Shown here piece by piece: positions 10,665 to 31,434 of a stretch of 41,144 bases of DNA (the stretch's first letter is position 1; every line of letters begins with the position of its first letter). Position numbers and translations under genes: made by a program. Under the pieces are notes generated by a model that had not been told where the DNA came from, ran no database searches, and saw only the letters and a program-made list of their open reading frames with translations. This stretch comes from Pseudomonadaceae bacterium (GTDB lineage: Bacteria; Pseudomonadota; Gammaproteobacteria; Pseudomonadales; Pseudomonadaceae), in contig JAIERD010000396.1 of the NCBI GenBank assembly GCA_019747155.1, forward strand, positions 1 through 41,144. The letters run 5' to 3'.

Positions 10665-10787
10665 CAACAATCCTCAAATGGGCAAAGCCTTGTGAGGAGA
10701 ACAGAGGCAAGCGCTGTCAGCCGGGCTCGGGTAAACCGGGCAGCCGTCTGCGCTTGCCGGTGATTGCCCTCCGCAATACCAGTGGCA

Positions 10788-11006
10788 TCCCCAAGGCCGG
10801 TCTCCGGACTGCCGAGTCAAACCTGCTTACCTTCCCAGGCGAACCCAGTGGTGTTTTAAGCAGGCGTTGCAGTTCAATCCAATGGCCGCTGGGCCGCTGT
10901 TTAAACTGCGCTCGGTTACCGTTGCGGGGGCAGTGCAGGCTTGGCCAGATGGCGCACCTGCTTCCCGTTTCAGGCTGCAGCGACAACGCTGACAGCACAC
11001 CTTGGT
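10788..11006 (-). ncRNA. Cobalamin riboswitch
   Basis: On minus strand: GGTGTGCTGTC, GAAACGGGAAGCAGGTGCG, CTGCCCCCGCAACGGTAACCG, CCACTGGG, GGGAAGG, TCCGGAGACCGGCC in canonical order upstream of btuB. Confidence 0.93.
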
Positions 11007-11172
11007 GGATAAAAAAACGTCGCGCACCTTAAAGGCGCGGGGGGAGCCAAGGCAAGTGAAAAGCGCGCAGGCCGACGTGCGCCGCGCTCACCTTGGGCGG
11101 GGTTTGGGATTGTGCATGCGATTGTCGCGGTCTTGACGGGCTACGGGCGGGCGCAAACCCGGCCGCAGCGCT

Positions 11173-25670: not shown

Positions 25671-27023
25671 ATGCACATCCATATTCTCGGTATCTGTGGC
25701 ACTTTTATGGGCTCGCTGGCGGTGCTGGCTAAGGAGTTGGGCCATCGCGTGACCGGCTCCGACGCCAATGTTTACCCGCCCATGAGCACCCAGCTGCAGG
25801 CCCAGGGCATCGAACTGATCCAGGGTTATGACCCGGCTCAGCTCACGCCGGCACCGGATCTGGTGGTGATCGGCAACGCCCTGTCGCGCGGCAATCCGGC
25901 GGTGGAGTATGTGTTGAACAAGGGCTTGGCCTACGTGTCCGGTCCGCAATGGCTGGCCGAGCATGTGCTGCAAGGGCGTTGGGTGTTGGCGGTGGCCGGC
26001 ACTCACGGCAAAACCACCACCAGCAGCATGCTGGCCTGGGTGTTGGAACATGCCGGCATGAGTCCGGGCTTTTTGATTGGCGGCGTACCACAGAATTTCG
26101 GTATTTCGGCGCGCCTGGGCGATACGCCGTTCTTCGTGATCGAGGCCGACGAATACGACAGCGCCTTCTTCGACAAGCGCAGCAAGTTCGTCCACTACCG
26201 CCCACGCACGGCGATTCTGAATAACCTTGAGTTCGATCATGCGGATATCTTCCCGGATCTGGCCGCCATCGAGCGGCAGTTCCATCATCTGATACGGACC
26301 ATCCCCAGCGAAGGCCTGGTTATTTATCCGCAAGCGGAAGCCGCCTTGCAGCGAGTGATCGAGATGGGCTGCTGGACGCCCGTGCAGACCACCGGCGAAG
26401 GCGCCCAATGGCAGGCTCGATTACTTAGCGAAGACGGCTCGCGTTTCGAAGTGCTGTTCGCCGGCGCAGTGCAAGGCGTGGTCGACTGGCCGCTGACTGG
26501 TCAGCACAACGTCGCCAACGCCCTGGTGTGTCTGGCGGCGGCGCGCCACGTTGGTGTGGTGCCGGAGCTGGGGATTGCCGGCTTGAGCGCATTCAAGAAC
26601 GTCAAACGGCGTATGGAGAAGGTCGCCGAAGTGGCGGGCGTGACCATCTATGACGACTTTGCCCACCACCCCACCGCTATCGCCACCACCCTCGACGGCC
26701 TGCGTAAAAGCGTCGGCGCGGCGCAGTTGATCGCCATCATCGAGCCGCGCTCCAACTCGATGAAACTCGGCGCCCATCGCGCCGGGTTACCGGAATCCGT
26801 CGCCCAAGCCGATCAGGTGTTCTGGTACGCCCCGGCCAACCTCGGTTGGGACTTGGCCGCCACTGTGGCCAGCAGCACGGTGCCGACCCAGGTCTGCGAT
26901 TCGCTGGAGCAGATCATCAGCGGGGTTAAAGCATTGGCCGCCCCCGGCACCCAGGTGGTGGTGATGAGCAACGGCGGCTTCGGTGGCTTGCATGGCAAGC
27001 TGGCTGTGGCGCTAGCGGAATAG
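25671..27023 (+). CDS. mpl: UDP-N-acetylmuramate:L-alanyl-gamma-D-glutamyl-meso-diaminopimelate ligase
   Basis: HIHILGICGTFMGSLAVLAKELGHRVTGSD, GTHGKTTTSSM, DDFAHHPTAIATTL. Confidence 0.96.
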   Translation: MHIHILGICGTFMGSLAVLAKELGHRVTGSDANVYPPMSTQLQAQGIELIQGYDPAQLTPAPDLVVIGNALSRGNPAVEYVLNKGLAYVSGPQWLAEHVLQGRWVLAVAGTHGKTTTSSMLAWVLEHAGMSPGFLIGGVPQNFGISARLGDTPFFVIEADEYDSAFFDKRSKFVHYRPRTAILNNLEFDHADIFPDLAAIERQFHHLIRTIPSEGLVIYPQAEAALQRVIEMGCWTPVQTTGEGAQWQARLLSEDGSRFEVLFAGAVQGVVDWPLTGQHNVANALVCLAAARHVGVVPELGIAGLSAFKNVKRRMEKVAEVAGVTIYDDFAHHPTAIATTLDGLRKSVGAAQLIAIIEPRSNSMKLGAHRAGLPESVAQADQVFWYAPANLGWDLAATVASSTVPTQVCDSLEQIISGVKALAAPGTQVVVMSNGGFGGLHGKLAVALAE

Positions 27024-27062
27024 AAAGTGGAAGTTCGCGCTCAAGGCGTCGTGAGCGCAAAT

Positions 27063-27160
27063 TAGGTCAGGCGAAAGCCTGCGAGAAAGCGGAGTTTACA
27101 GCTGTAAATGAGCATTTCGAGCAGGCTTTCAACGCAGCATAAGCAAGCGCAACAGCGTTG
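27063..27160 (+). repeat. Structured intergenic element, copy E1, in the ubiX leader
   Basis: AGCCTGC / GCAGGCT clamp around GAGAAAGCGGAG-TTTACAGCTGTAAA-TGAGCATTTCGA, then TTTCAACGC tail; similar to 29611-29751 (minus). Confidence 0.75.
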
Positions 27161-27171
27161 AGAGTGAATTT

Positions 27172-29610: not shown

Positions 29611-29751
29611 GCAGGCCGTTGAAAACTACTGCGCTAGGCTATGCGGCGTTGAAATCAGCCTCAAAATGCTCATGTACAGCTCGTACACTGCGCTTTTTCG
29701 GCTGATTGCGCCTTGCCTAGCCGTCGCTCGCTACATTTTTCAACGGCCTGC
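29611..29751 (-). repeat. Structured intergenic element, copy E2, with 15-bp terminal inverted repeats
   Basis: gcaggccgttgaaaa ... ttttcaacggcctgc; inner AATCAGCC / GGCTGATT clamp around GAAAAAGCGCAG-TGTACGAGCTGTACA-TGAGCATTTTGA. Confidence 0.8.
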
Positions 29752-31434
29752 CAAGGGCATGTTCGGCTTGCTGGTGACGCAATTTACGCCACTGGGCGAG
29801 CACGCCTTTGGGCGCCCACATCTGCGGTTCGGAGGCTTGGAAGTCGCCGGCTTTTTCCCGCTCGGCGACCTTGGTTTTGGCCAGTTCGAAGGCGCGCGGC
29901 AGGTCGTCGGTTTCGGTCAGCGCCTCGCTCAGCAGGGCGCGGCCAAAGTAGGTGAAGTCGGCCTCGTCCGAGCAGCCAAAAGACACGCGGTCGGCGCGGG
30001 CCGCCGCGATCACCAGGGTTTTTTCGTCTTGCAGCGGCGGGATAAAGCCGCCGGCGTAACAGGCGGCAATCACCACCACCTTGTTGCGGTTTTTCAGCGG
30101 CTTGAGCAGCTCGGCCAGCTCGCTGGCCGGCAGGCTTTCGAGCTCAAGGCGTGGCTGCTGCAGTGACAGTTGATGGTCGTGCGAGCCATGGCTGGTCAGG
30201 TAGATAAACACCAAGTCTTCGGCGCCGCTGCGTTCGCTAATGGTTTGACGGCGCGGCGCAGGTTTTCGCGGGTGGCCAGCGGCCGGTCAGTCAAATGGTC
30301 GCGGTTATTGGTCAGACTGATTTGGCCATGGGCGGCGAAGCGCTCTTTGAAAAGTTGATTGGCGTAGTCGGCCTCGCGCAGGAACACGCTCTGCGAGCCG
30401 TCGCCAGCCAGCGTCAGGCTGTACAGCTCGATTGCCGGGGTGGACGGCGGGATGGCGGCCAGGGCGTGTTCGAGCAACTGTCCTTGCGCCAGCAAGCCGA
30501 GCTCCAACGGGTCGCCAAGGCGTTGTGCCTGCTCATCGCGAACCCGCTGGCCATGTTGCCACTGGCCGCCGGTAATGCTGCCATCGGCGAGGGTGAGTTG
30601 ACCTTGGCCGTGGTACTCGTCGTCGGCAAACTCACCGACGAATCGGCTGCCGTCGGCCAGTTGCAGTTGGCCCTTGCCGTTAAAGCGCCAATGGCGCAGT
30701 TGGCCTTGGTAGTGACGCCCGTCACTGCCAATAAATTCACCGGCTCCGGTGAGCGCGCCATGCTTGAACTGACCGAGCCAGACATCGCCCTCGCTGCTGG
30801 TGTAGCGGCCCTTGCCGTCAAAGCTGTCGTGTTTAAAACCGCCCACGTACTGCTCACCTTCGGCGCCCATGTAGCTGCCTTCGCCCTCGAGCAAGCCCTG
30901 CTTGAAGGTGCCGCTGAGCAGATTGCCATCGGCATCTTTGCGCACCCCTTGGCCCTGGGGTTCGCCGCGTTTGAACTGGCCGGTGTAGTTGCTGCCGTCG
31001 GCCAGTTCGAGGTCGCCAAGACCATGGTATTGATCGGCTTTGAACTCGCCGCGGTAGCTCAGTTTGCCTTGCTGTAAATGACCTTCGCCGTCCATCTGGC
31101 CTTGTTTGAAGTGACCTTGATACAGGCTGCCGTCTTTGTGGCCGAGGCTGCCTTGGCCGTCGAATTCGCCTAGTTGAAACTCGCCGATGTAATGCTCGCC
31201 GTGGGGACCTTGCCATTCGCCTGTGCCGTGCGCCTGACCGTCTTTGAATTGTCCGGCGTACCAGCTGCCATTGCGGTAATCCAGCCGCCCAGGGCCTTGT
31301 AGCAGGCCGTTGACCACTTCGCCGCGATAGCGTCCGCCATCCGGTAAGGTGGCGTTCGCCGGGGTCAAGGGCTCGCCCTGGCCGCAGGCGACCAGCAGCA
31401 AAGCAAGGCTTAAGGGGGCAAGCAAATAGCGCAT
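29717..31434 (-). pseudogene. MORN-repeat lipoprotein fused to a C13 (legumain-like) peptidase, frameshifted near 30235-30255
   Basis: ORF 30196-31434 has lipobox LLVAC and about 11-12 MORN units; ORF 29717-30214 carries IYLTSHGSHDHQ (His) and VVIAACYAGGFIPPL (Cys). Confidence 0.82.

Follow-up and report, generated by a model that had tools for sequence, protein, structure and literature searches.

MITEs are usually regarded as dead deletion products bound to one IS and one lineage. Those of the IS5 superfamily are short and gene-free, reach high copy number, have the TIRs of full-length IS and are flanked by target-site duplications of the YTAR, TNA or TA type, all of which also holds for the elements described here. 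These elements differ in that their interior is not an internally deleted IS (inspection of the ends showed that only ~16 bp of TIR are held in common with the partner IS) and in that one structured core is common to several TIR classes and phyla. REP sequences and REPINs with their RAYT are likewise palindromic, dispersed, intergenic and common in Pseudomonas, but our elements measure ~120–140 bp and have full TIRs, duplications and conserved internal-loop strands, and no gene, RAYT included, recurs beside them (~120 loci, 2.5 kb). ERIC, Correia (NEMIS) and RPE repeats are each known from one lineage; they too are palindromic mobile repeats of ~100–150 bp, mostly intergenic but in some cases inserted in frame into genes, and they are not known to have such a shared core, a distinction drawn from their descriptions. 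The R178 repeat of P. fluorescens is 101 bp long with an internal 11-bp inverted repeat, a GC content of 61.9% and 18, 28 and 9 copies in SBW25, Pf0-1 and Pf-5 (Silby et al. 2009, PMC2718517).

The window (the whole stretch of 41,144 nucleotides analysed here) contains two copies of the element, E1 and E2, which the sequence confirmed at the places and on the strands where the preliminary description had put them, together with the clamps, the stems at the apex and the almost invariant strands of the internal loops reported there; the lengths, however, had to be revised. E1 is an imperfect palindrome of ~141 bp (27031–27171, + strand), delimited from its sequence and from the ends of its orthologues, with the outer stem AAGTTCGCGCTCAA...TTGAGAGTGAATTT. 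Within it, on the same strand, follow the 5′ strand of loop B (AGGC, 27069–27072), the 5′ strand of a covarying 10-bp clamp (GAAAGCCTGC, 27073–27082), the conserved tip core GCGGAG-TTTAC-n-GTAAA-TGAGCATT (27089–27116), the covarying 3′ clamp strand (GCAGGCTTTC, 27121–27130) and the 3′ strand of loop B (AACG, 27131–27134). The two loop B strands recur across the family: of 333 copies, 278 have AGGC/AGAC upstream and 298 have AACG/AACA downstream. E2 (~139 bp, 29612–29750, − strand) belongs to the IS5-like class a and has the TIR CAGGCCGTTGAAAA...TTTTCAACGGCCTG, identical to that of a full-length IS in genome G012; its tip core, including the preceding AA, occupies 29665–29695 (−). E1 is flanked by the mpl stop (27021–27023) and the ubiX start (27172), so closely that its outer stem directly adjoins the ubiX ATG. 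Its orthologues in G001 (L105) and G013 (L108) have the same ends, and a clear target-site duplication was not found for E1. The right end of E1, GAGAGTGAATTT (window 27158–27171), just 5′ of this ATG, may provide the ubiX ribosome-binding site. The ORF upstream of E2 (29717–30214, −) runs into the element, which supplies its terminal residues RPLKNVASDG and stop codon, so that the insertion has reshaped the C-terminus of the ORF.

The preliminary description proposed a conserved nucleic-acid fold in which the stems covary and the loops stay the same, and the wider sample bears this out. From the outside inward the layers are an outer stem, which is the TIR, a loop region (GTAGCGAGCGA / GAGCGCAGTAG in a Pseudomonas example), a second stem of the pattern GGNNA:TNNCC, loop B (AGGC / AACG) and the clamp; inside the clamp there is often a GA/GA step, then a stem of 4 bp (RRAA:TTYY), the tip loop with its strands GCGNAG and TGAGCA and, at the apex, a stem of 5–6 bp with a short loop. 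In every stem the differences between copies are compensatory; the internal-loop strands GCGNAG/TGAGCA and AGGC/AACG, by contrast, are fixed, an invariance that for the core of the pattern-found copies is partly built in by the design of the search. In 168 of 238 copies the distance between clamp and core is constant, and in these 1535 of 1680 positions form Watson-Crick pairs, against 982 when the right arms are shuffled. Among 42 diverse copies, 97.2% of cells paired (78.2% shuffled, 47–51% slid by one column), double-sided changes occurred at 14 of 19 pairs and the covariation score was 0.568 against 0.184. Across 333 copies the two arms align over ~60 nt per side with a median score of 50.5, compared to 19.5 for swapped arms. 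The apical stem covaries as well (GCCTAC:GTAGGT, GTGTGC:GCACAT) in divergent copies found by the covariance model and not by the exact core, and in one of them (L477) a GC:GC step is replaced by CC:GG. Extra branched modules are present in some copies (L035, L042, L101, L459, L462–L464). A classical kink-turn was ruled out by inspection, the loop letters being unsuitable.

In the element's own genome (G000, an assembly 79% complete in 621 contigs) the core AAGCGNAGTNTACN{0,12}GTANATGAGCATT gave 37 exact matches, against none for a reversed-pattern control, and the covariance model gave 73; for two relatives the model gave 40 and 36. A comparison with Rfam yielded only weak matches to unrelated families, whether the thresholds were curated or loose. 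Exact cores were found in 18 of 38 relatives, other families of the order included, at 0–39 per genome in the first sample of relatives; most of the larger Pseudomonas genomes sampled (6–7 Mb) had 0–1. Thirteen of 249 sampled Pseudomonadota genomes contained the core, with 51 copies in G261 and 163 in G187, and the reversed pattern always gave 0. The highest whole-genome counts were 169, in a Nitrosomonadales MAG, 163 and 121. In a species-level collection the core occurred in at least 119 stretches; judging from their titles, the matches listed include Halomonas, Salinicola, Chromobacterium, Luteimonas, Microbulbifer, Nitrosomonadales, Rickettsiales, Desulfobacterales and many Bacteroidetes, these last being metagenome bins. 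Several independent Bacteroidetes bins have AT-rich variants of their own. One and the same tip is found with several TIR classes and in several phyla, from Pseudomonas to Alistipes. Three plasmid records carried the element; it was not found in phage records. The motif was printed for no bacterial repeat in the literature searched, which lacked most subscription papers and yielded only unrelated sequences, and its strings were likewise absent from the two MITE papers searched.

The elements are gene-free imperfect palindromes of ~120–140 bp with TIR ends that fall into four classes, each with a target-site duplication of its own length (4 bp YTAR, 3 bp TNA, TA, or a different 4-bp sequence), types that correspond to the IS5, IS1031 and IS427 subgroups. 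Identical 4-bp flanks were found for 20 of 56 class a copies (shuffled mean 4.4, maximum 11) and for 7 of 16 in class d (0.77, maximum 4), identical 3-bp flanks for 13 of 31 in class b (4.5, maximum 9), and TA on both sides in 20 of 21 class c copies. Full-length IS with matching TIRs occur in related genomes as well, a DUF772 IS in G012 with CTAG|CAGGCCGTTGAAAA and CAGACTGTGTGAAAA ends and DUF4096 IS in G008 and G001 with TA|GGTTCTGTACGAAAA-type ends. The transposase for the copies in G000 is deduced from these relatives, since no match to PF05598 or PF13340 was found in that 79%-complete assembly. Precise empty sites at orthologous positions in relatives were recovered at two loci, the joined-flank query having covered six, and the insertions examined were mostly species-specific. 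No neighbouring protein recurred within 2.5 kb at ~120 loci, which marks the element as non-autonomous. Together, the TIRs, duplications, matching full-length IS and empty sites indicate miniature transposons, and on these sequence features E1 and E2 both belong to a single non-autonomous, MITE-like family, for which mobilisation in trans, probably by transposases from several IS families, is well supported. In G000, a second L014 locus, 89% identical, lacks the element (G000:C540:6400-6686) and may be a paralogue or reflect a mixture of strains.

A different role had been put forward for E1, that of a leader RNA of ubiX, and this is not supported. The element does lie in sense orientation abutting ubiX and is retained there, with compensatory changes, in three species, as would be expected of a cis-acting attenuator, riboswitch or antiterminator serving ubiX and other genes, and several species retain a related structure between rplY and pth. 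However, most Pseudomonas lack it at this position and have a mpl-ubiX gap of only ~0–20 bp, other species have unrelated repeats there, and members of the same family also sit beside unrelated genes. Orientation relative to the flanking genes, approximate as it derives from codon-scored gene calls, shows no bias, with 49 copies in sense, 67 in antisense, 40 in convergent and 23 in divergent arrangement. The absence before ubiX in most Pseudomonas and the unbiased orientation argue that E1 is not a ubiX leader, and we consider a cis-acting role of this kind very improbable. The copies kept between rplY and pth (L066, L068, L071, L073, L220; gene names read from sequence) are diverged relatives of the element in several fluorescens-type Pseudomonas.

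The pattern of mismatches suggests that the tip fold is constrained as one particular single strand. On the strand reading GCGNAG...TGAGCA, G.T mismatches outnumbered A.C: the ratio was 50:16 among 120 distinct clamps (p = 3e-5) and 33:10 within the young E2 subfamily, where there were 39 double compensations besides, and high-GC and low-GC hosts gave 262:142 and 137:53 respectively, counts that represent non-independent events as the copies share ancestry. A cruciform would give equal numbers, so that an excess on one strand speaks for a folded single strand; the excess was present whether copies lay sense, antisense, convergent or divergent to their neighbours. Orthologous copies suggest in addition that pairing is maintained after insertion, for in L273/L284 the clamp differences were compensated 4/4 and further compensations were seen in L049/L184 and in the E1 trio. 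Given the shared ancestry, these tests are suggestive and not proof.

Taken as a whole, the data are best explained, with a probability of roughly 0.75, by a superfamily of non-autonomous miniature transposons that are mobilised in trans and whose tip is read as a folded strand by a host component. Transposases of several IS families would move the elements, and the tip would be read, as folded RNA or, less likely, as folded ssDNA, by a widely conserved component of the host, which would aid the spread of the element or its tolerance. In the outer stem only self-complementarity would be constrained, leaving it free to drift; it may come to match whichever IS is at hand, so that lineages acquire the ends of different IS. 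We infer that the tip functions as a folded strand, most likely RNA, since the constraint is single-stranded and tolerant of G.U and DDE transposition does not require ssDNA. Because a single tip is found with several TIR classes and in several phyla, the putative partner is probably itself a widely conserved bacterial component. A bolder version, offered only tentatively, is that the tip is a new structured RNA (or ssDNA) module present across phyla, which binds some near-universal component of bacteria and was joined repeatedly to unrelated IS ends; the elements would then be bacterial equivalents of SINEs, parasitising many DNA transposases at the same time. One candidate, a primosome site suggested by the string AAGCGG, was rejected: positions relative to the replication strand, counted by eye and including those of G029, revealed no consistent bias, and a primosome site is hard to reconcile with the G/C alternation in GCGNAG.

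The most serious alternative is that these are plain MITEs with a non-functional interior, the pairing of the stems being due to hairpin-templated (quasi-palindrome) correction or to a few master copies and the tip being merely inherited. Being MITEs would account for TIRs, duplications and copy number, and paired changes like the 4/4 in L273/L284 can arise through template switching in the absence of selection. Yet template correction should erase non-complementary loops, which are instead the most constant part, and it neither predicts the preference for G.T over A.C on one strand nor explains why a single tip recurs across different TIR classes and phyla; we regard this explanation as unlikely. 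That the family is an already named Pseudomonas repeat such as R178 is less likely still: the size and the internal inverted repeat are similar, but GC content and copy counts do not fit, a comparison made on the published description (PMC2718517), and even a match would leave the cross-phylum family uncovered. The preliminary description also considered a protein-binding site, a role that the loops may have, and a mobile ssDNA substrate. Mobility was borne out, but ssDNA is an unlikely route of transposition, given the TIRs, the duplications and the full-length DDE-type IS. The conserved loops in otherwise free stems are reminiscent of attC sites and of IS200/IS605-type recognition; a folded strand serving a HUH/Y1 transposase or a tyrosine recombinase, in the manner of REPINs or attC sites, would also explain a single-strand constraint irrespective of gene orientation. 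The class-specific duplication lengths, together with full-length IS whose TIRs are identical, speak instead for DDE transposases, and no recurrent protein neighbours the copies within 2.5 kb, all of which makes such a substrate a rather remote prospect.

What is new here is the shared folded tip, which occurs across several TIR classes and phyla in up to 169 copies per genome. One folded core recurring with several kinds of ends, along with signs of selection on its single-stranded fold, contrasts with the usual view of MITEs. Were the tip functional, it would explain the spread and tolerance of such elements and would be a ready probe for an RNA- or ssDNA-binding partner. Alu and other SINEs offer an analogy only, as structured non-coding elements moved by the proteins of others with a fold under constraint, but here the ends are those of DNA transposons and do not involve retroposition, and docking to the ribosome is a feature known from the Alu/SINE side.

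Some further arrangements were observed. Larger versions with an additional branched module (TTCGCTTCGCTCACCC...GGGCCG...) beside the tip occur in two families of the order (L035, L042, L154, L158, L217, L223, L459, L462–L464), and two genomes have tandem copies ~120–170 bp apart (L160, L252). In Pseudomonas xionganensis the element lies in frame within an enzyme-like ORF (L193), comparable to Rickettsia palindromic elements. Elsewhere in the window, a cobalamin riboswitch was identified against Rfam at 10779–11019 (−) with 80 bits.
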